A stretch of 64,000 nt of DNA from Actinomycetota bacterium. GTDB lineage: Bacteria; Actinomycetota; Nitriliruptoria; Nitriliruptorales; Nitriliruptoraceae. The DNA lies in the NCBI GenBank assembly GCA_019347575.1, contig JAHWKY010000027.1, forward strand, positions 1-64,000, in the 5' to 3' direction. The position numbers and the translations under genes are program-made. Below the pieces are notes generated by a model that made no database searches, had not been told where the DNA came from, and saw nothing but the letters and a program-made list of their open reading frames with translations. Positions 38,544 through 56,895 of this stretch are shown here, piece by piece (the first letter of the stretch is position 1; each line of letters begins with the position of its first letter).

Positions 38544-40595
38544 CTACGGGGCGAAGAGCGAGCGCAGGTCGTCGACGGACGTGACGGGGCGCTCGCACAC
38601 GAAGTCGTGGCACACGTACGCCGCGGGCGCGCCGTCGGCCTCGCCCCGGCCCTCCAGCAGCGGGACACGGACGGCAGCGGGGTCATCCGGGGCGGCCACG
38701 GCCACGACCGTGCCGGGCCTCAGCGCATCCCAGACGGCGCGAACGAGCGCGTTCCGCTGCTCGCCCTCCGCCCCGACGATGGCGATCTCGCGCGGCCCGG
38801 CCACAGCGAACTCGACCGCCTGTAGCAGCCAGCCGTAGCCGGTCGGCATGCGCGCGACGTCGCCCTGGAAGGTGGCGATGACCTCGTCAGCGACCTCGCG
38901 CCAGCGCGCCTGGCCGGTGTAGGCGGCGAGTCGCAGCGACACGTCCGCCATGACGCTGTTGCCGGACGGCGTGGCGTTGTCCCAGGTTTCCTTCGGTCGG
39001 CGGTACAGCTCTTCGCCGTCCGCTGCGGTCTGGAAGAAGCCGCCGCCGTCCTCGTCGCGGAACCTCGCCAGCGCGTCGTCGGCCAGTTCGACCGCGCGGT
39101 CGAACCAGCCCACCTCCCCCGTGGCCGCGTACAGATCCAGGTACGCCGCTGTGAGGTAGGAGACGTCCTCGAGGAAGGCCGGTACGGATGCCCGGCCGTC
39201 CTTCCAGGTGTGATGCAGGACGCCGTCCACGACGAGGTTGGCCTCGAGGAACCGCGCGATGCGGACCGCCTCGGTGGTGTAGCGATCCACGTCGAGGTGG
39301 ACCCCGGCACGCGCCAATCCCCGGATCGCGAGGGCGTTCCAGGAGGTGAGGACCTTGTCGTCGAGCCCCGGGTGCACACGTTGCTGACGATGCGCGTAGA
39401 GCGTCTCCCGGACCGCCTCGAGGTCACGGCGGAACGAGTCGGCGTCGAGGTCGTTCTCGGTGACGAAGTCGTCACGCGGGACCGGCTCGTGGAGGATGTT
39501 GGTGCCCTCCCAGTTGCCGTCGGCAGTCACACCGAAGAAGCGCGCGAACACGTCCGCATCGGCGCCGGCCTCGGCGACGACCCCGCGGAACTCCTCGTCG
39601 CTCCACACGAAGAACCTCCCCTCGACGCCCTCGCTGTCAGCGTCGGTGGCGGACCAGAGGCCTCCCTCCGGGTGCTGCATGTCGCGCAGCAGGTAGTCGG
39701 CCGTCGAGCGAGCGACGCGGGCGAAGCGGTCGTCGCCGCTCGACACGGCCGCTTTCGCGTAGCAGGGCAGCAGCAAGGCGTTGTCGTACAGCATCTTCTC
39801 GAAGTGGGGCACGAGCCAGTGGGCGTCGGTGGAGTAGCGGGCGAAGCCGCCACCGATCTGGTCGTGGATCCCGCCCCGCGCCATGGCGTCCAGCGCCTGC
39901 CCCGCCGCGAGCAGCTCGTCGTACCCGCCGGTGCGCGCGTGTCGGTCGAGCAGGTACTCGATCGTCATGGCCTGCGGGAACTTCGGGGCGCGACCGAACC
40001 CGCCCGCGTGCCGGTCCCACGCCTGCTCGAGGATCGTGCTCGCTGCGTGGTCGGTGACGTCGAGGTCGACGTTGCCGCGGGGCGCCTGCTGCGCCGCGCG
40101 CTCCCTCAGCGCGGTCACGAGTCGCTGCGACTGTTGGGCGACCTCGTGACGCCGTTCGGTCCACGCCTCGTGCACCGCTTCGAGGATGTCCGTGAAGCCC
40201 GGCATCCCCTGGCGTGCGGGGTGGGGCCAGTAGGTGCCGCCGAAGAAGGGCTCGCCGTCGGGCGTCAGGAACACCGACATCGGCCAGCCGCCGTGGCCGG
40301 TCATCGCGGTGACGGCGTCCATGTAGACCGCATCGACGTCGGGGCGCTCCTCCCGATCGACCTTCACGTTCACGAAGTGCTCGTTCATCAGGCGGGCGAC
40401 GTCGGGGTCCTCGAACGACTCGTGCGCCATCACGTGACACCAGTGGCAGCTGGAGTAACCGACCGATAGGAAGATCGGCTTGTCCTGCTCCTTGGCCTCA
40501 TGGAAGGCGTCCTCACCCCAGGGGTACCACTGCACCGGGTTGTCGGCGTGCTGGAGCAGGTACGGGGAGGTCTCGGTGGCGAGGCGGTTGGACAC
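38544..40595 (-). CDS. DUF255 / thioredoxin-domain protein (YyaL, SPATA20-like)
   Basis: A 683-residue protein. Residues 1-160 form the DUF255 thioredoxin-like domain with [19 protein letters not shown], the CxxC motif in SSCHWCHVM and [21 protein letters not shown]. The remainder is an (alpha/alpha)6 barrel of the N-acylglucosamine-epimerase type ([42 protein letters not shown]). The function of the family is not established. The GTG start at 40595 has GGAG upstream. Fragments of this gene's 5' part recur at 41742 and 46231. Confidence 0.92.
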
Positions 40596-40720
40596 GGGGC
40601 TCCGGAGCGACGGGGTCACCTCCCAGGCTACGAGGTCGCCGCCAGGCCCCGCCGACCGAGCGTCCCGCCTAGGTGCGCCGTGGTCCCCGTGCGCCCATCC
40701 TCGGCCCGCGGCCGGTCGTA

Positions 40721-40770
40721 ACTTCATCCCCCAGATCGCTCGCATATCCGAGCGGATCGGGGGACGAAGT
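40721..40770. repeat. Dispersed 50-bp palindromic repeat, copy B
   Basis: The near-perfect palindrome starts ACTTCATCCCCCAGATCGCT, ends GGATCGGGGGACGAAGT and is centred on ATAT. Together with about 45 further bases on its right it is shared with copy D (63069). It lies 125 bases upstream of the DUF255 gene start. On the minus strand the 130-base shared block reads as an open frame beginning MGEEAESL in both copies, probably a coincidence of palindrome structure. Confidence 0.9.
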
Positions 40771-40908
40771 TGAGCGACGCTCCGTGGAAGCGACTCGGCC
40801 TCCTCACCCACGCAGAGGGTGTAGTCCGCTACGTGCTCATGCGACCTCTAGCCGACCGGCCCGATAGCCACGGTTCTCTTGCTCGGATCCATCAGCAGGT
40901 CCAGTTCA

Positions 40909-48765: not shown

Positions 48766-49041
48766 ATGGTTCTCCTCGCAGTAGGAGCCGTGGGGGCCAC
48801 CGTGTGGTGGCTCGGACTGCTCGTGGTCCTCGCCGTGGTGCTCGCGATCGCCTACCTGGCGCACCAGGTCACCCGGAACGTCGCGGAGATCCGTCGGTAC
48901 TCCCAGGACATCCTCGAACACGGGGTCGGGCTGGCCGGTGAGCTCGACCCGGTGCCACTGCTCGGCCGCACGCGGGAGCTCGTCGTGACCGTCGCCGACG
49001 CCTTCCGTCAGCTCGTCCAACGTCTGGCACCCCGCATCTAG
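48766..49041 (+). CDS. Small single-pass membrane protein (hydrogenase locus, 1)
   Basis: A 91-residue protein: a long N-terminal hydrophobic segment (WWLGLLVVLAVVLAIAYLA) and a helical soluble part (VTRNVAEIRRYSQDILEHG). It resembles the proteins at 49524 and 49786 in order of features: TM, VAEI-type charged helix, short tail. It is first in a tight operon leading to the hydrogenase subunits. Function unknown; membrane tether is the inference. Confidence 0.75.
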   Translation: MVLLAVGAVGATVWWLGLLVVLAVVLAIAYLAHQVTRNVAEIRRYSQDILEHGVGLAGELDPVPLLGRTRELVVTVADAFRQLVQRLAPRI

Positions 49042-49048
49042 GAGCGCC

Positions 49049-49342
49049 ATGGTCAACGCCCTGTACGTTGCCTCGGTCGCGGTCGTCGCTGTGCTCGTAC
49101 TCGCACTCGCCGCGTACCTGCTGACCATCCTCTACCTGCTCCGGTCGACCCGCGACACGCTCGGCAAGGTCCTGTTCGGGGTGCGGGCGATCGCCCACCG
49201 GGCCGAGCCGATCGGACCCGTGCTAGCCGACGCCAACCGCGAGCTGGGCACGGTCCGCGATGCGTTCAACGACGCGTTCCCAGACGAACAACCGGCAGCG
49301 CCCGAGCGCCGGCCCTTCCTCAACCCCGAGCTGCGGCCATGA
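49049..49342 (+). CDS. Small single-pass membrane protein (hydrogenase locus, 2)
   Basis: A 97-residue protein with an N-terminal membrane segment (VASVAVVAVLVLALAAYLL) and the soluble motif KVLFGVRAIAHRAEPIGP. That motif recurs as KTAFGVRAIETQAGAIGP in the protein at 50067, so the two are paralogues. The ATG has GGAG upstream. Function unknown. Confidence 0.75.
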   Translation: MVNALYVASVAVVAVLVLALAAYLLTILYLLRSTRDTLGKVLFGVRAIAHRAEPIGPVLADANRELGTVRDAFNDAFPDEQPAAPERRPFLNPELRP

Positions 49343-49524
49343 GCCTCGAGCTGCGTTGCGCCGAGCTGGGCTTGGCCTGCTCGCACCGGATGTCGGGCGG
49401 GTCGGAGGAGGAGCTGACGGATGAGCTGCGCAGGCACGCCGCGGACCGGCACGACGTTCCCGAGCTCAACGACACGCTGATCGACTACGCGATCAGCCGC
49501 GCCCGTCGCGGATCGGAGACCTGA
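49339..49524 (+). CDS. DUF1059-type small protein
   Basis: A 61-residue soluble protein with CAELGLACSHRMSGGSEEELTDELRRHA, fitting DUF1059: two cysteines about eight residues apart, an acidic helix, then His residues. Overlaps both neighbours (ATGA; one base). DUF1059 has no established function; the Cys pair could bind metal. Its presence inside the operon is unusual. Confidence 0.75.
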   Translation: MSLELRCAELGLACSHRMSGGSEEELTDELRRHAADRHDVPELNDTLIDYAISRARRGSET

Positions 49525-49775
49525 TGGAGGTCGATACCACCACCTGGATCGTCGGCTTCGCGATCGGCGGCGCCGTGGTCGTCATCGTGGTCGCCGTGGT
49601 CTTGGCGATCACCTTCTACGCGACCCGGATACGCGATCAGGTCGCCGAGATCGTCAGCGCCCTCCAGCATGCGGAGACGAACACGGCTCCCCTCTGGAAC
49701 GTGATGGAGGTCGGATACCGGACGAAAGAGCTGCGCCGGGGTGCCGAAGAGGTACGTCGCCGCCTGGGTGGATGA
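49524..49775 (+). CDS. Small single-pass membrane protein (hydrogenase locus, 3)
   Basis: An 83-residue protein with one membrane segment (IGGAVVVIVVAVVLAITFYA) followed by RIRDQVAEIVSALQHAE and a basic tail ELRRGAEEVRRRLGG. It shares the TM-plus-VAEI layout with the first protein of the operon. The ATG overlaps the DUF1059 stop by one base. Confidence 0.72.
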   Translation: MEVDTTTWIVGFAIGGAVVVIVVAVVLAITFYATRIRDQVAEIVSALQHAETNTAPLWNVMEVGYRTKELRRGAEEVRRRLGG

Positions 49776-49785
49776 GGAGAAGATG

Positions 49786-50064
49786 ATGCTGGCGACGGCG
49801 GTGACCGGCGCGTTGCTGGGGTGGTGGTGGGCGGCGTTGGCCGCCGGCCTCGTCGTGGCGTTGGTGGTGATCGTGCTGCTGCACCGACTGCTGACGCGGG
49901 TCCACGAGATCGAGGACGGCGCCCGCCTGGTCTGGTCCACGGGCAAGGCAGTCGCGCGCAACACCGCGACCACCTGGATGTTCGACGACACCGCCGACGC
50001 CCTCGAGGACCTGCGCGACGAGGCGCTGCGACACGGGGAGCTGCTGCGCGGAGAGGGGAGCTGA
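49786..50064 (+). CDS. Small single-pass membrane protein (hydrogenase locus, 4)
   Basis: A 92-residue protein: membrane segment (WWAALAAGLVVALVVIVLL), then LLTRVHEIEDGARLVWSTGKAVARNTATTW and an acidic helix DDTADALEDLRDEAL. I chose the ATG at 49786, 6 bases after AGGAG; an ATG three bases earlier or an upstream GTG overlapping the previous gene are alternatives. Confidence 0.68.
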   Translation: MLATAVTGALLGWWWAALAAGLVVALVVIVLLHRLLTRVHEIEDGARLVWSTGKAVARNTATTWMFDDTADALEDLRDEALRHGELLRGEGS

Positions 50065-50066
50065 CC

Positions 50067-50327
50067 GTGCTGGAACTGCTGATCACGCTCACGATCGTCG
50101 AAGCCGTCCTCGTGCTCGCCGTGCTCGTCTGGTACCTGATCCGGCTCCGCATCAGCCTCCGGAACACCGCAGGCTTGCTGGCCAAGACCGCCTTCGGCGT
50201 ACGCGCCATCGAGACCCAGGCCGGAGCGATCGGGCCCGGCGTCCTCCGCATCAACGCGGTCCTGGAGGAACTGGCCACCGTGGGGCCAGAGCTCGTCGCG
50301 GCCGCCGACCAGTCCACCGACAGCTGA
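50067..50327 (+). CDS. Small single-pass membrane protein (hydrogenase locus, 5)
   Basis: An 86-residue protein with N-terminal membrane segment (ITLTIVEAVLVLAVLVWYLI) and KTAFGVRAIETQAGAIGPGVLRINAVLEEL. It is a paralogue of the protein at 49049. The GTG is preceded by AGGGGAG. It lies 11 bases before the hydrogenase small-subunit gene. Confidence 0.72.
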   Translation: MLELLITLTIVEAVLVLAVLVWYLIRLRISLRNTAGLLAKTAFGVRAIETQAGAIGPGVLRINAVLEELATVGPELVAAADQSTDS

Positions 50328-50338
50328 GAGGATCGACG

Positions 50339-51736
50339 ATGCCGACGCAGACACCGCAGCGCACCCCCGCGGAGCAGCTGCTGGAGGTGCTCGGCCCCGT
50401 CGAGCGCTACACGGGGGAGCGCGACGATCTCGGTGACTTCGGGTCGCCGGGCCGGCAGAGCATGGCCGCCGCCCTCGCTCCGGTCGCGGGGGAGGTTCCG
50501 GCGACCTCCCTGGGGCCCCTCACGAAGGTGCACGCGTTCTGGTTCGCCGGGATGTCCTGTGACGGCTGCACCGTGTCGGTGACCGGGGCCACCACACCGT
50601 CGGTCGAGAGCCTCCTGCTCGGTTCGCACCCCGGGTTGCCTCAGGTGGTACTGCACCATCCGGTCGTCGACACCGAGTCCGGTCCCGCGTACATGCGTCC
50701 CCACGAGGCGGCGGTCAAGGGCGAACTCGATGAGCCCTACGTGATCATCCTGGAGGGCTCGGCCACCGACGAGACCCGCGCCATCAACGGCGGGGGATAC
50801 TGGGTCGCGCAGGGCGAGGAGCCGTGGGGCCCGGACGGTGAGGAGCGCTCCGTCACCACCGAGGAGTGGCTCGCCCGACTCGCACCAGGCGCCGCCGCGG
50901 CCATCGCGATCGGCACCTGTGCCACGTGGGGCGGGATCCCGTCGGCCGACGGCAACCCCACGGGGGCGATGAGCCTCATGGACTTCCTCGGCAAGGACTA
51001 CCGCAGCGCCTTCGGCCTGCCGGTCGTGAACGTCCCGGGCTGCGCCCCGGTCGGGGACAACTTCACCGAGACCGTGGCCGCGATCCTCTACTTCCTGCAG
51101 GGCTTCGGCCCACTACCGGAGTTCGACGAGTTGGGACGTCCGGCCTGGCTGTTCGGGGAGACGGTCCACCGCCACTGCGTCCGGGGGGCGTACTACGAGG
51201 AGGGTTCGTTCGCCGAGGAGTTCGGCGATCCGAACTGCCTGGTCGAGATCGGCTGCTGGGGCCCGGTGGTCAACTGCAACATCACCTCCCGAGGCGCGAT
51301 CCGCCACGTCGGCGGGTGCATGAACTCCGGCGGGGCATGCATCGGCTGCACGATGCCGGGCTTCCCCGACAAGTTCACGCCGTTCTACAAGACACCACCG
51401 GGGTCGGCGGTGTCGACGAGCGCCTCCCGTCTCCTCGGCAGCCTGATCCGTCCGCTGAGGATGACGACCAACGAGCACCTCAACCGCGAGGTGCGCTGGG
51501 ACCTGCACCGCGAGACGCCGAGCGGCTGGGCGAAGCACAAGTCCGAGCCCGGCCTGCTGTCGCGTATCGAGCATCGCCTGTACGACGCGCTGCGCCGCTC
51601 CAACGACCGTGGCAAGAACGACGGCGATGCCTGGGGCAAGCGCAGCGAGTGGACGGACAAGCGCGACCCGGAGGACGAGACCAGCGACGTCGACCAGCGC
51701 GACAACGTGCTCGAGTCGACCGAAGGAGATCGCTAG
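50339..51736 (+). CDS. [NiFe] hydrogenase small subunit
   Basis: A 465-residue small subunit that carries electrons from the active site through Fe-S clusters. The proximal cluster region is AGMSCDGCTVSVTGATTPSVE, with later Cys in IGTCATWGG and NVPGCAPVGDN. The medial/distal cluster region includes FGETVHRHCVRGAYYE, NCLVEIGCWGPVVNCNI and GGCMNSGGACIGCTMPGFPD. No twin-arginine or other signal peptide is seen, so the enzyme probably faces the cytoplasm. Sequence style fits the actinobacterial high-affinity group 1h/1l-like oxidising enzymes, subgroup uncertain. The C-terminal 90 residues are charged and probably disordered. Confidence 0.93.
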   Translation: MPTQTPQRTPAEQLLEVLGPVERYTGERDDLGDFGSPGRQSMAAALAPVAGEVPATSLGPLTKVHAFWFAGMSCDGCTVSVTGATTPSVESLLLGSHPGLPQVVLHHPVVDTESGPAYMRPHEAAVKGELDEPYVIILEGSATDETRAINGGGYWVAQGEEPWGPDGEERSVTTEEWLARLAPGAAAAIAIGTCATWGGIPSADGNPTGAMSLMDFLGKDYRSAFGLPVVNVPGCAPVGDNFTETVAAILYFLQGFGPLPEFDELGRPAWLFGETVHRHCVRGAYYEEGSFAEEFGDPNCLVEIGCWGPVVNCNITSRGAIRHVGGCMNSGGACIGCTMPGFPDKFTPFYKTPPGSAVSTSASRLLGSLIRPLRMTTNEHLNREVRWDLHRETPSGWAKHKSEPGLLSRIEHRLYDALRRSNDRGKNDGDAWGKRSEWTDKRDPEDETSDVDQRDNVLESTEGDR

Positions 51737-53638
51737 ATGTGCTTCCGCAACCTGCCCGTCGACTTCGACGAGGCCGGCAACGCCCGGCTGCGGGGCGGCA
51801 TCCCCGACCCGTACGCCGTCTCGGTCAGCAGACCGGACATCGCCGAGACCGATGCCGACCGTGAGGAGCGCATCCAGAGGTTGATGGCCCGTCAAGGGCA
51901 CATCAAGGATCTCAACATGGATCCGGTCACCCGTGTGGCCGGCGCCCTGGCCGTGAACGTGACGGCCGATCTCGATTCCGGCCAGTACCTGGATGCTCGC
52001 TCGCAGGCGACGCTGTTCCGCGGCTACGAGGTGATCCTCATGGACCGCGATCCCCGCGACGCCATCTTCGTGTCATCACGAGCCTGTGGCGTCTGCGGCG
52101 GGGTGCACTCGCATGCTGCGGCGTACGCCATCGAGATGGCGATGGGCCTGAAGCCGCCGCCGCTCGGCACGGTCATCCGCAACCTCGGTGAGGCTGCCGA
52201 GATGGGGTACGACAACCCCCTGCACCTGTACCTGCTGGCCGGCCCCGACTACTCCGAGTCCATCATCAGGCAGTCGAACCCCGAGCTGTGGCCCAAGGCC
52301 GAGAAGTGGTCGTGCCCGAGCCAGGACATCCACCGGTTCAAGAAGATGTCGGACCTCATGACGGCGCTCAACCCCCTCACGGGCGCCCTCTACCGCGAAG
52401 GCCTCGAGTTCACCCGGGTGGCCCGCGAGCAGTTCTCGATCCTCCACGGCAAGTACCCCCACCCCCAGACCATCGTCCCGGGCGGTGTCTCCACCACGTT
52501 CACCCTGCAGACCCTCAACGAGTACCACTCGCGACTGGCGCAGACCTTCGACTACGCCCAGCGCATGCTGGCCATCTGGGACGACCTCACCGAGTTCTTC
52601 TACGAGGCCGACGACCGCTACGGCGATGTGGGGACCCGCCCGTACGACTTCATCGATCCCGGGTACTGGGACGACCCGTACGCGTACGACGCCACCTACG
52701 AGAACTGCACCGAGTGGGGGCTGCGCCGGCCCTCGACCCCCGGGGTGGTGATCGATGGCGAGCTCATGACCACGCGGCTCACCGACATCAACATGGGCTG
52801 GGAGGAGTTCGTCGAGCACTCCTACTACGAGGAGTGGGCCGGGGACCGCTACCAGACCGACCACCTCGGCAACCCCATCAGCCCCTACCACCCCTGGAAC
52901 AAGCGCACGCTGCCCAAGCCGAGCGAGAAGAGCTGGAAGGACAAGTACACCTGGGCCTGCACGCCCCGCTGGGACCGCACGTCGGTCGAGGCGGGCGCCT
53001 ACGTCCGGCTGCTGACCACGGCCATGGCCCAGGAGCACCCGCCGAACGACTTCTACGAGGCCACGGGGCACTCCCTGCGGATGGAGGTGCCGAAGGGAGA
53101 GCTCGGTACGAGGGAGTACGAGTGGCACGTGCCCGAGAAGTGGAACGCGTTCGAGCGCAACCGCGGCCGTGCCTACCACTACCTGTTCGCCCAGCTCATC
53201 GGCATGACCAACGTCCTCACGGCTTACGACCTGCTGCGCAACGGCGAGACCCAGGTCGCGGCCGTGCCGCCCGACGAGCTCGACAAGCACATCCCGAAGG
53301 AGGAGGTCCGCAGCGTCGGCTGGTGGGGCGCCGGGCGGGGATGGCTGACCCACCACCTCGTGATGGAGCAGGGCAAGATCGCCAACTACCAGATCTGCAC
53401 GCCGTCGACCATCAACGCCTCGCCGCGCGACCCCTGGGACCAGCCAGGGCCGTACGAGCAGGCCGTGATGAACACGCCGATCATCGAGGACGTCTCCGAC
53501 CCGTCGAGGTTCACCGGGATCGACATGCTCCGCACCATCCGCAGCTTCGACCCGTGCATGCCGTGCACCACCCACGTCTACACCGGCAACGGCGTCATCA
53601 CCCGCGAGGTCAACACCTGCGCGTGCGGTGACGACTGA
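51737..53638 (+). CDS. [NiFe] hydrogenase large subunit
   Basis: A 633-residue subunit with the NiFe centre. The N-terminal ligand pair is in SRACGVCGGVHS, and the C-terminal pair in DPCMPCTTH; both Ni ligands of each motif are Cys, so no selenocysteine is used here. A 20-residue extension after the last His (VYTGNG...ACGDD) is expected to be clipped by a maturation protease. The ATG follows AAGGAG at the end of the small-subunit gene. Residues 300-470 carry the long insert typical of the 1h-type lineages. H2 oxidation is inferred. Confidence 0.94.
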   Translation: MCFRNLPVDFDEAGNARLRGGIPDPYAVSVSRPDIAETDADREERIQRLMARQGHIKDLNMDPVTRVAGALAVNVTADLDSGQYLDARSQATLFRGYEVILMDRDPRDAIFVSSRACGVCGGVHSHAAAYAIEMAMGLKPPPLGTVIRNLGEAAEMGYDNPLHLYLLAGPDYSESIIRQSNPELWPKAEKWSCPSQDIHRFKKMSDLMTALNPLTGALYREGLEFTRVAREQFSILHGKYPHPQTIVPGGVSTTFTLQTLNEYHSRLAQTFDYAQRMLAIWDDLTEFFYEADDRYGDVGTRPYDFIDPGYWDDPYAYDATYENCTEWGLRRPSTPGVVIDGELMTTRLTDINMGWEEFVEHSYYEEWAGDRYQTDHLGNPISPYHPWNKRTLPKPSEKSWKDKYTWACTPRWDRTSVEAGAYVRLLTTAMAQEHPPNDFYEATGHSLRMEVPKGELGTREYEWHVPEKWNAFERNRGRAYHYLFAQLIGMTNVLTAYDLLRNGETQVAAVPPDELDKHIPKEEVRSVGWWGAGRGWLTHHLVMEQGKIANYQICTPSTINASPRDPWDQPGPYEQAVMNTPIIEDVSDPSRFTGIDMLRTIRSFDPCMPCTTHVYTGNGVITREVNTCACGDD

Positions 53639-54413
53639 GACCGGTCAGCCCGTGGTCACGCTCGTCGGGGGTGTCGGCGAGCTCTACCAGGGCGACCTGG
53701 ACCTGGGCCGGCGGGTCGCGGAGCTGCTCACCGAGGAGGATCTCGGGCATGGCGTCGCGGTGGAGGACCTGCACTACGGCGCGGTGGCCGTCGCCCAGTA
53801 CCTCCAGGACCTCGCTCCCGACACCCTGATCCTGATCGGCGCGGTCGCCCGAGGCCGCCCCCCGGCGACGCTCGAGCGCCGACGCATCGCCGCGGTCACC
53901 CTCGCGGGCGCAGATCTGCAGCTGGCGGTCGGGGACGCGGTGACCGGCTACGTGGCCATCGACCTCGTGATCGAGGTCGGAGCGGGGCTCGGGGCCTTAC
54001 CGGATCGCGTGGTCACCATCGAGGTCGAGCCCGTCACCACCGGCCCTGGGGACGCCCTCTCACCGGAGGTCGGCGCAATGGTCCCACAGGTGCTCGACCT
54101 GGTGCGCACGGAGGTGGAGCGTGCTCCGGTGTTCGGTCTGGCGGCGCGCCTCGTCGAGCAGGTCGGCGACGGACATCTGGAGCCGTCGCCGAGCACCGAG
54201 TCGCTCGCGGTGCTGCTGGGGGCGCTGAGCAGGACGGAGCGAAGCGGCCACTGGGGCCGCACCTTCTCCCACCGCGACGAGCTCGAGCACCGGCTCGGCC
54301 GGGGCGAGACGTCGCCTGGCATGGATCATCTCGACTGGGGGCTCGTGTGGTCCCTCATCGAGGAGCTGGACCGGCTCGAGGGCGCGGAGGCACGACGCAT
54401 CGCCGGCACGTGA
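53628..54413 (+). CDS. Degenerate hydrogenase maturation-protease homologue
   Basis: A 261-residue protein whose first 150 residues resemble the HybD fold (VVTLVGGVGELYQGDLDLGRRVAELL; then LILIGAVARGRPPATL). The Ni-binding acid of the first motif is displaced (GDLDLG instead of TDEAIG-type), and the central Asp (normally in a V-D-A motif) is replaced by Gly (LIGAV), so proteolysis seems unlikely. The C-terminal 100 residues are helical and unrecognised. The GTG start overlaps the large-subunit stop by 11 bases. It may be a chaperone of the large subunit (inference). Stops 3 bases before the convergent BPL-like gene. Confidence 0.7.
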   Translation: MTTETGQPVVTLVGGVGELYQGDLDLGRRVAELLTEEDLGHGVAVEDLHYGAVAVAQYLQDLAPDTLILIGAVARGRPPATLERRRIAAVTLAGADLQLAVGDAVTGYVAIDLVIEVGAGLGALPDRVVTIEVEPVTTGPGDALSPEVGAMVPQVLDLVRTEVERAPVFGLAARLVEQVGDGHLEPSPSTESLAVLLGALSRTERSGHWGRTFSHRDELEHRLGRGETSPGMDHLDWGLVWSLIEELDRLEGAEARRIAGT

Positions 54414-54416
54414 TGC

Positions 54417-55130
54417 TCAGTCGTCCTCCGCCTCCAGCTCACCGAGGTGCTGAGGCCGGACGGCGATGCGGCCGCCTGCGGCGGTGGCGATGACCAGTGC
54501 TCCGTCGTCCTTCAGATCCGCAGCCGTGCCTTCCACCCTCGGACCGCCCGGTCCCATCGGGATCATCAGCGCCCGGACCTGGGCGCCGAGCGTCGCGCAG
54601 CACGACCGGAGCTGATCCAGCACCGGGCCGGGCTCCCGTGACAGCGCCCGATCCAGCGCCTCCGCAGCGTCAGCGATCACGGCCGCTCGGGGCTCGCCCG
54701 GTGCCCGGATCAGGACCGTGGCCACTGCCCAGTCGACCCGTGCGGGACCGAGCTCTGCGTGGATGCCGACGTGTGCGACGGGCCGGTCGTCGCGCGCCAG
54801 CAGATCGGGCCAGTACCACTGCGCCCCGACCCCGACGATCTCCACCAGCGCGACCGCGGCCGCCGCGTAGAGCCAGCCCTCGCGCTCCGGCGACAGCCCG
54901 GGGCGCAGGATCTGCGAGAAGGTCGCGTCCTCCGGCGCCACCTCCCAGGGCCGTCCGGCCCGCCCCCGTGGGGCCGCCTCGTACCCGGCCACGACGACGG
55001 CCCCCGCCGGCCCCTCTCGCCGGGCCCACGACTGCGCCTCTGCGGCGGTCGACAGGAGGGCTGGGAAGAAGCGGAAGGGCCGGTGTCCGAGGGCCTCAGC
55101 CACCGCGTCGTCACGTAGCGGCGCGATCAT
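54417..55130 (-). CDS. Biotin-protein-ligase-like protein lacking the catalytic lysine
   Basis: A 237-residue protein that looks like a biotin-ligase fold: GYEAAPRGRAGRPWEV matches the BirA ATP/biotin loop (GRGRRGR-W type), QWYWPDLLARDDRPVAHVGIHAELG occupies the KWPNDLL...K segment, and the C-terminus resembles the BPL C-terminal domain (GTAADLKDDGALVIAT). The conserved lysine after WPNDLL is not found (DDRPV), so normal biotinylation is doubtful. Position in the hydrogenase locus suggests an accessory binding role. The ATG overlaps the TPR stop. Confidence 0.62.
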   Translation of the reverse strand: MIAPLRDDAVAEALGHRPFRFFPALLSTAAEAQSWARREGPAGAVVVAGYEAAPRGRAGRPWEVAPEDATFSQILRPGLSPEREGWLYAAAAVALVEIVGVGAQWYWPDLLARDDRPVAHVGIHAELGPARVDWAVATVLIRAPGEPRAAVIADAAEALDRALSREPGPVLDQLRSCCATLGAQVRALMIPMGPGGPRVEGTAADLKDDGALVIATAAGGRIAVRPQHLGELEAEDD

Positions 55131-56347
55131 CCCCAGCCCGAGTCGGGGCCGGCGTGGGTCTCGAAGACGGACTTCAGGCGCATCCACTGCGGGACGTGGA
55201 AGCGGATCATGGCCCGCGAGAACCGACTGCGGAGGGCCTCAGCGGTGTCGTGCGGGAGGGTCGCCGCCGCGGCCACCGTGTCGGCGACCAGCGTGTCGAG
55301 CCGGTCCGGTGGCAGCTCCAGCGCGCAGTCGATGAACGCCTCGGCCAGCGCGATCCCCCGCTCGCCAGCGTCGGCGATCCCTCTGGTCACGGCGGCGAGC
55401 TCCGCCAGGCGCTCGGCTGCCTGGAGGTCCAGCCAGCGTGCCATCTCGGACCGGAGCAGGGCGGTCCAGACCTCCCGTGGCTCGTCCGCCAGTACCACCA
55501 GCACATCGCCGGTGGGGCTCCCAAGGCGCTCGAGGACCGCCGCCGCCTGATCGTGGACGGGCTCGTCGGCTGCCGGCACGACACGGGCCTGCGCGGCGGC
55601 CAGGCGAGCCCGAACCGGCTGCCCGGCGGCCTCGTACGCGAGCGCGAGGTTCGCCAGCGCCATCGCGTGCGGTCCGGGACGGAGCGCACGCGGATGGGCC
55701 GCAACGGCGCGCAGCAGGACGTCCACCGCACGCTCGGCGTCGTCGAGAGCAAGGTGGGCCAGGCCGAGGAGGTTGGCCGCGGCACCGAGGGCCGAGGTGT
55801 CGCCCGCGCGCTCGGCCAGCTCCAGCGCGGACCGGAGGTGTCCGATCGCATCCTCAGGCTCGTCCATCGTGAGCAGGCAGGCGCCGAGCTCGCGGGCGGC
55901 CGCCGCAGCTTCCGCTCGAGCACCCGCTGCGTCGAACAGGTTCAGGGCGTCCAGGAACGCCTCGCGCGCCCCGGGAAGATCCCCAGCATCGCGTCTGGCG
56001 AGCCCGAGGTTGTGGGTTGCCGCTCCCTGCTCGGGGCCCGCCGCCGCGCGCTCGAACGCGGCAGCCGCCCGCGCCAGCACCTCGACGGCGAGCCCCGCCC
56101 GACGGGTCTCGCGCAGCAACGCGCCGAGCGCGTTGAGTGCGACCCCGTGCTCACGTGGCAGCTCCGCCGGAGGGAACCCGGCAGCAGCGGCCGCCAGTGC
56201 GGCCTCGGCGTCGTCGTACCGGCCGACCTGGAAGAAGGCGGAACCGAGATGGAACTGCGCGGTCGCGTGCTGGACGGGGTACCGCTCCGCCGAGTACCTG
56301 CGCACGCTGGACTCGAGCTGACGGATGGTCTCAGCGACGTCGTCCAC
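55127..56347 (-). CDS. TPR-repeat protein
   Basis: A 406-residue protein made of about eight tetratricopeptide-type helical pairs in the first 260 residues, such as QFHLGSAFFQVGRYDDAEAALAAAA and NLGLARRDAGDLPGAREAFLDAL. The C-terminal 130 residues are a different, mostly helical domain. TPR domains mediate protein-protein binding. It is the first gene of a two-gene minus-strand unit with the BPL-like protein, divergent from the HybD-type protease by 17 bases. GTG start. Confidence 0.82.
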   Translation of the reverse strand: MDDVAETIRQLESSVRRYSAERYPVQHATAQFHLGSAFFQVGRYDDAEAALAAAAAGFPPAELPREHGVALNALGALLRETRRAGLAVEVLARAAAAFERAAAGPEQGAATHNLGLARRDAGDLPGAREAFLDALNLFDAAGARAEAAAAARELGACLLTMDEPEDAIGHLRSALELAERAGDTSALGAAANLLGLAHLALDDAERAVDVLLRAVAAHPRALRPGPHAMALANLALAYEAAGQPVRARLAAAQARVVPAADEPVHDQAAAVLERLGSPTGDVLVVLADEPREVWTALLRSEMARWLDLQAAERLAELAAVTRGIADAGERGIALAEAFIDCALELPPDRLDTLVADTVAAAATLPHDTAEALRSRFSRAMIRFHVPQWMRLKSVFETHAGPDSGWG

Positions 56348-56364: not shown

Positions 56365-56895
56365 GTGCACGTCATGGTGGCCGGGTTCGGCAACGTCCTG
56401 CGGGGGGACGACGGGTTCGGCGTCGCCGTCGCCGAGCTGCTGTCGCGTGCCCCGGTGCCACCCGAGGTGACCGTGACCGAGGTGGGGATCGGGGGCATCC
56501 ACCTCGTGCAGGATCTCCTGGCCGGGCAGGTCGAGCTGCTGATCGTCGTGGATGCGGTCGAGGTGGGTCGTGCTCCCGGCACGGTCGTGATCCTCGAGCC
56601 ACCCATCGACGACGTGCTCGGCATGAGCGTGAACGAGCGCCGCGATGCCCTCGCCGACATGCACTACGCCACGCCGGACCGGGCACTGCTGCTGGCGACC
56701 GCCCTGGAGGTCCGTCCGGCATCGGTCGTGATCGTCGGATGCCAGCCGGTCGACGCCGACACCTGGGAGCAGGGCCTCAGCGGCCCGGTAGCAGCGGCCG
56801 TGCCGGCGGCGGCGGCGGAGATCCGCCGCCTCGTCGCCCAGGCGGGCGTGGCATGGCCCGAACCCACAGGAAGATCAGCCGGGGACGATGGGTAG
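56365..56895 (+). CDS. Hydrogenase maturation protease (HybD family)
   Basis: A 176-residue protease that cleaves the C-terminal extension of the large subunit once Ni is bound. The family motifs are intact: MVAGFGNVLRGDDGFGVAVAELL with the Ni-binding acid in GDDGFG, the central Asp in IVVDAVEVG, and the His in DMHYATPDRA. The GTG at 56365 sits only 1 base from AGGAG, so an ATG three codons on (56374) may be used. The 3' end overlaps the NifU-like gene by 21 bases on the opposite strand. Confidence 0.88.
   Translation: MHVMVAGFGNVLRGDDGFGVAVAELLSRAPVPPEVTVTEVGIGGIHLVQDLLAGQVELLIVVDAVEVGRAPGTVVILEPPIDDVLGMSVNERRDALADMHYATPDRALLLATALEVRPASVVIVGCQPVDADTWEQGLSGPVAAAVPAAAAEIRRLVAQAGVAWPEPTGRSAGDDG

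Follow-up and report, generated by a model that had tools for sequence, protein, structure and literature searches.

Five small single-span membrane proteins accompany group 1m-type NiFe hydrogenases and form I CO dehydrogenases as a putative exchangeable docking module

The window, that is, the whole 64,000-nucleotide stretch of actinobacterial DNA analysed here, carries six short genes directly upstream of the genes for the small and large subunits of a NiFe hydrogenase, with genes for maturation-type proteins on the other side (Table 1). An earlier reading of this DNA, made from the letters alone (hereafter the sequence-only reading), had placed five single-transmembrane (TM) ORFs back to back at this site, and all five were recovered with the same starts (48766, 49049, 49524, 49786, and 50067). 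The DUF1059 gene that it had seen embedded among them matched PF06348 with an E value of 9.5e-8, over the Pfam cut-off, and its relatives shared the C-x6-C and H-x4-H spacings in the alignment. From S1 through S6 to the small subunit, the spacings were +7, -4, -1, +10, +2, and +11 nt, so the genes do overlap or nearly abut each other and the hydrogenase, as had been said; because the spacings are so tight, the six short genes and the hydrogenase look like one operon. The two subunit genes follow each other with zero gap, and the last 11 nt of the large-subunit gene are shared with the protease-like gene. Pfam matches of the small TM proteins themselves (RDD, DUF1512, and others) were discarded, all being below the cut-off and several lying mainly on the TM helix.

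Table 1. Genes of the hydrogenase locus, with positions counted from the first letter of the window
Feature	Position	Strand	Description
S1	48766..49041	+	91 aa, single-TM, family A, HylTM4 position; predicted orthologue of the fourth 1l TM gene
S2	49049..49342	+	97 aa, single-TM, family B (FGVRAI..IGP), HylTM5 position
DUF1059 gene	49339..49524	+	61 aa, soluble, C-x6-C ... H-x4-H
S4	49524..49775	+	83 aa, single-TM, family A, HylTM1 position
S5	49786..50064	+	92 aa, single-TM, family A, HylTM2 position
S6	50067..50327	+	86 aa, GTG start, single-TM, family B, HylTM3 position
Hydrogenase small subunit (group 1m HhmS)	50339..51736	+	without Tat motif
Hydrogenase large subunit (group 1m HhmL)	51737..53638	+	
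Hydrogenase maturation protease-like protein	53628..54413	+	TIGR00072, just under curated cut-off
BirA-like protein	54417..55187	-	weak BPL_C match, E 0.0056, under cut-off
TPR protein	55127..56347	-	
HybD/HycI-type maturation peptidase	56365..56895	+	

S1, S2, S4, S5, and S6 each have one hydrophobic 19-mer near the N-terminus (mean Kyte-Doolittle value 2.6-3.1), and no second hydrophobic segment was found in any of them. Arg/Lys residues stand C-terminal of the TM segment in nearly every orthologue, and the predicted topology is therefore N-out/C-in with a cytosolic C-terminal part; the positive-inside rule gave C-in for all five protein families across all three enzyme contexts described below. 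The sequence-only reading had counted at least two of the proteins as paralogues, and its FGVRAI pair, S2 and S6 (family B), indeed showed 47% identity (E 2.6e-6) and a profile-profile probability of 99%. The VAEI likeness that it had noted between the first and third TM proteins, S1 and S4, was borne out within family A (S1, S4, and S5), whose members gave hhalign probabilities of 94-97% pairwise. Cross-family pairs, used as a TM-matched control, stayed below 10% in five of six cases, the exception being S2-S4 at 87%. As judged by these sequence comparisons, the five proteins belong to two paralogous families in a 3+2 arrangement.

The cytosolic regions showed amphipathic periodicity in all five 1m families, with peaks at 103-106 degrees per residue (p at most 0.002 relative to shuffled columns). 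Across 1m, 1l, and two CO dehydrogenase (CODH) sets, the peak was at 100-107 degrees in 18 of 20 profiles; heptad periodicity is 102.9 degrees. AlphaFold2, run on monomers and prone to render any helical peptide as a single long helix, modelled S5 as one helix over residues 2-89 (mean pLDDT 89) and S2 as one helix over residues 2-76 (mean pLDDT 85.5). A PDB profile search returned no homologue among solved structures, only coiled-coil look-alikes; family B matched designed coiled coils, which we read as heptad-like composition and not as kinship. Single-TM relatives of S1/S2/S4 with 190-250 aa were also seen beside some arrays (loci L083, L087, L066, L092, L088, and L111) and may be elongated stalk-like paralogues. 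At L047 (7639-8262, - strand), a single open frame without an intervening stop covers both S5 and S6; a natural fusion is possible, and so is an assembly error, the neighbouring small subunit being split over frames.

Published group 1m loci have adjacent small- and large-subunit genes, a HybD peptidase, an FeS protein, a CooC ATPase, TPR, BirA, and DUF1059 proteins, and are also listed with two single-TM proteins of 82-92 aa (Ray et al. 2022, PMC9561532), the sole paper that we found on DUF1059 with hydrogenase. Of these traits, the window has the adjacent subunit genes, DUF1059, TPR, HybD-type peptidases, and single-TM proteins, together with a weak BirA match; an FeS assembly protein and a CooC-type ATPase were not found among the flanking ORFs scanned. 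The window large subunit shares 68-80% identity with some two dozen sequences from actinobacteria, 53-58% with others, and ~41% with group 1h. In the large-subunit tree, it fell into a clade of 24 rows with a support of 100, apart from group 1h including Cupriavidus HofG and apart from 1l-type loci, which were recognised by their hallmark of five TM genes between the small- and large-subunit genes. Group 1m is the best assignment, a name that rests on gene content and order, the tree containing no labelled 1m reference. The small subunits of the 1m and 1l loci checked had no RRxF Tat motif, which agrees with the earlier remark that the hydrogenase lacks a signal peptide and is in line with a cytosolic enzyme. 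When a plasmid collection was searched for 1l/1m relatives, nothing closer than ~39% appeared, the matches being group 1h and other groups. Two loci, L092 and L064 (genomes G236 and G140), carry a strongly diverged large subunit, on a long branch of the tree, beside the TM module and DUF1059.

Profile mapping revealed that the gene set was kept, in full or in part, in 20 of the 21 close 1m loci. The five TM genes and DUF1059 were all present in the window and in eight of the 21 (L037, L041, L042, L044, L047, L048, L053, and L054), as well as in L066, L108, and L113 from other genomes. Seven Thermoleophilia-type loci had four TM genes with DUF1059, L043 had four without it, and in four close 1m loci the three TM genes S4-S5-S6 were visible, cut by contig ends. 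The 1m locus L052 had no module, its genome containing one weak partial S5 match, and there was none near the second 1m copy in genome G289 (L067). Across a sample of 396 genomes, 19 of the 20 with a 1l/1m hydrogenase contained the module. The sequence-only reading had suggested a search of other 1h/1l-like loci for the same gene set; it is there in 1l, but the module was absent from seven group 1h loci of 12-20 kb, and one of 22 genomes with only a 1h enzyme carried it. The conservation of the set in dozens of genomes excludes chance.

The arrangement of the set varies between loci. In the usual 1m layout, S4-S5-S6 are divergent from the small-subunit gene and S1-S2-DUF1059 follow a few kilobases past the large-subunit gene, and in L066 (also 1m) S4-S5-S6-S1-S2-DUF1059 form one array. 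Group 1l loci have S4-S5-S6-S1-S2 between the two subunit genes, and the passages of PMC9561532 on group 1l, citing an earlier study, describe five short TM proteins, HylTM1-5, that are encoded between the subunits. The window order, S1-S2-DUF1059-S4-S5-S6 upstream of the small subunit, is a permutation. In the profile comparison, the best 1m match of each 1l protein was its counterpart, and the order agreed. The five window proteins are thus predicted one-to-one orthologues of HylTM1-5, as compared with 1l-type loci and not with the published HylTM sequences. Because its TM genes lie upstream of the small-subunit gene, the window locus is not group 1l, and still its module is orthologous. The idea of a module of the hydrogenase therefore holds, and its kind had already been published as HylTM1-5, going by the same passages of PMC9561532.

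When the 396 genomes were searched with the S5 and family B profiles, strong matches also came from genomes that lack a 1l/1m hydrogenase. In at least 11 genomes (loci L076-L082, L087, L088, L093, and L094), the five-gene set, without DUF1059, lies near the form I (Mo,Cu) CODH genes coxMSL, directly adjacent to coxM-coxS-coxL in most and ~6 kb off in L088. Most of these arrays are beside coxG, and coxD/coxE are also near most of them. Every CoxL of the module-bearing loci has the form I active-site motif AYRCSFR, and the subunits were Pfam-confirmed in the loci scanned. In the main clade, the array follows coxG in the order S1-S2-S4-S5-S6; in the other, it adjoins coxMSL as S4-S5-S6-S1-S2. None of 13 control CODH loci, some of them on short contigs, had the module. 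The 37 genomes with a strong S5 match comprised 19 with a 1l/1m enzyme, 15 others with form I CoxL, and three with neither; in two of these three, an HhmS-like gene adjoins the array close to the end of a contig, and the remaining genome is incomplete. Accordingly, a 1l/1m hydrogenase or form I CODH is encoded in 34 of the 37 genomes with the module (Fisher p 2.5e-25), and the association with CODH persisted when 1l/1m genomes were excluded (p 1.5e-11); the species are related, so these p-values overstate independence, and the carriers span many families.

The sequence-only reading had held that homologues mostly outside hydrogenase loci would count against it. About half of the carriers do lack a 1l/1m large subunit, and most of those have the module beside form I CODH. 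A module exclusive to hydrogenases was rejected, since CODH loci carry the same five genes. In the concatenated module tree, the window grouped with 1m modules (87/89), the CODH modules formed two clades, and 1l stood apart; CoxL trees likewise contained two separate module-bearing clades. By the module tree and the placement of the CoxL clades, the module has swapped partner between hydrogenase and CODH at least once. CODH being a second cytosolic quinone-linked dehydrogenase, the general idea of an anchor is strengthened by its presence there.

Several arrays lie in other surroundings. Stand-alone arrays occur at L089 and L095, whose genomes also carry CODH or a 1m hydrogenase. L096 (genome G393) has a complete S4-S5-S6-S1-S2-DUF1059 array near genes for a HAD hydrolase and a transketolase; neither a hydrogenase nor a CODH was present on the stretch read. 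Part-modules of S4-S5-S6 are located directly downstream of a ~1600-aa protein in L084, L086, and L099 (G167, G124, and G264), and this protein has an N-terminal DUF255 thioredoxin-like domain (PF03190) in both loci scanned (L084 and L099). A DUF255 protein of 755 aa is also encoded in the window genome, at 38544-40811. At L056, L061, and L111, CoxD- and CoxE-like maturation genes adjoin group 1m/1l-like hydrogenases.

CoxG is described in PMC13240472, in a passage reporting other work, as the menaquinone-binding protein that connects CODH with the quinone pool. With coxG at or near the array, the module was rejected as a replacement of CoxG as quinone carrier. In the module-bearing CoxL clade of L080, L081, and L088 (the coxG of the last was located in L133), CoxG ends eight residues past its domain in all three, whereas the complete CoxGs of sister CODHs without the module have tails 65-187 residues long, in most cases with a hydrophobic helix at the end. 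Such a loss is as expected if membrane attachment had passed to the module; it is one evolutionary event, and the other module-bearing CODH clade keeps an amphipathic CoxG tail. The S2 proteins of L080, L081, and L088 share a C-terminal extension (GLVESLFPG...), in the same clade as the tail-less CoxG.

Considering these observations together, we favour, as reasonably probable, a hetero-oligomeric, membrane-rooted helical docking module that is exchangeable between trace-gas dehydrogenases. It would consist of three family A subunits (S1, S4, and S5) and two family B subunits (S2 and S6), each predicted to have one N-out/C-in TM helix followed by ~55 residues of amphipathic cytosolic helix. 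Most probably, the cytosolic helices would pack together as a left-handed coiled coil, a stalk that would bind the soluble cytosolic HhmS-HhmL. The enzyme would thereby be held near the menaquinone pool, and electrons from trace H2 could enter the respiratory chain. Going by synteny and orthology, group 1l hydrogenases and, without DUF1059, some form I CODHs use the same module. DUF1059 would act as an accessory on the hydrogenase side, perhaps as a small adaptor that binds metal, a guess that makes this the weakest step. The hetero-oligomeric membrane anchor that the sequence-only reading had proposed is the best reading because the set is a conserved companion of 1l/1m enzymes, its single-span proteins are all C-in, and the hydrogenase has no Tat motif; what did not stand is that it serves the hydrogenase specifically, since a module common to 1l/1m and CODH points to an exchangeable docking device and not to a hydrogenase-specific subunit. 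Our confidence in the anchoring is moderate. The analysis shows the gene set, its orthology, its predicted topology and helical amphipathicity, and its association with two enzyme types; oligomerisation, the stalk, contact with the enzyme, quinone access, and the role of DUF1059 are inferred.

Three other explanations were weighed against this docking module. The five amphipathic helices might instead make up a hydrophobic tube through which menaquinone reaches the enzyme, as proposed for the HucM tetramer, whose stalk is a coiled-coil tube with a hydrophobic lining and a reach of 94 A (PMC10017518). The length and amphipathic periodicity of the helices fit such a stalk and both partner enzymes presumably feed the quinone pool, but the CODH loci keep CoxG, itself a proposed menaquinone carrier, alongside the module, the lumen and quinone site are hypothetical here, and HucM is described without a transmembrane anchor; we regard the tube as rather unlikely. 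A combined version, in which a heteropentameric coiled-coil stalk would be both exchangeable socket and quinone conduit, recruited by 1l/1m hydrogenases and form I CODHs so that atmospheric H2 and CO oxidation would share one membrane-coupling machine, is put forward tentatively. It is improbable that the small proteins are assembly or maturation factors of a membrane-associated enzyme, outside the final complex: the array does lie among maturation genes (proteases, TPR, and BirA), and CoxD/CoxE genes flank the CODH arrays and the few hydrogenases named above, yet the partners, which differ in cofactor (NiFe versus MoCu) and maturation system, share all five proteins, and anchoring is also what the missing CoxG membrane tail of one module-bearing clade points to. 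Less probable again is an array that tethers a respiratory supercomplex or organises lipids or microdomains, placing the enzymes next to terminal oxidases without contact to quinone chemistry, for although the array is common to unrelated dehydrogenases and stands alone at a few sites (L089 and L095), it showed no association with oxidase genes, the stand-alone arrays are in CODH or 1m genomes, and L095 groups with CODH modules in the tree.

If the docking module is real, its sharing by NiFe and MoCu enzymes raises the comparative question of what their docking faces have in common. It predicts that the module, and not the catalytic enzyme, would determine how trace-gas oxidation is coupled to respiration in many soil actinobacteria. 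The results also flag a class of CODH loci with a membrane module, a description of which we did not find in the literature; no paper linking CODH to these small TM proteins was found either, and part of this may already be in print. As far as the literature searched shows, the gene set beside 1l was already known, and what is new is the presence of five TM genes in 1m, the one-to-one orthology with 1l, the 3+2 paralogy, and above all the occurrence with form I CODH.

Compared with the published 1m loci, the window has the same adjacent subunit genes, HybD-type peptidase, TPR, and DUF1059 proteins, its BirA-like protein matches weakly, and its single-TM proteins have 83-97 aa; instead of two, there are five of these in the window and many close relatives and four in Thermoleophilia. 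HylTM1-5 of group 1l would be the same five orthologous single-TM genes, but they lie between the subunit genes, whereas the window set is upstream, permuted, and far diverged in sequence. CoxG, like the proposed module, connects a cytosolic trace-gas enzyme with the quinone pool of the membrane, but it belongs to an unrelated family (PF06240) and is present in addition to the TM module. HucM is one protein that forms a tetramer with peripheral membrane association and serves the group 2a enzyme Huc (PMC10017518). No Huc chain was among the PDB profile matches of A4 or A5, and there was no sequence relation to HucM. Both HucM and the module are proposed helical stalks joining a cytosolic trace-H2 hydrogenase to the membrane; the former is a peripheral tetramer of a single protein, whereas the window module has five different TM proteins. 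By analogy, a five-helix stalk with real TM anchors could act like the Huc stalk.
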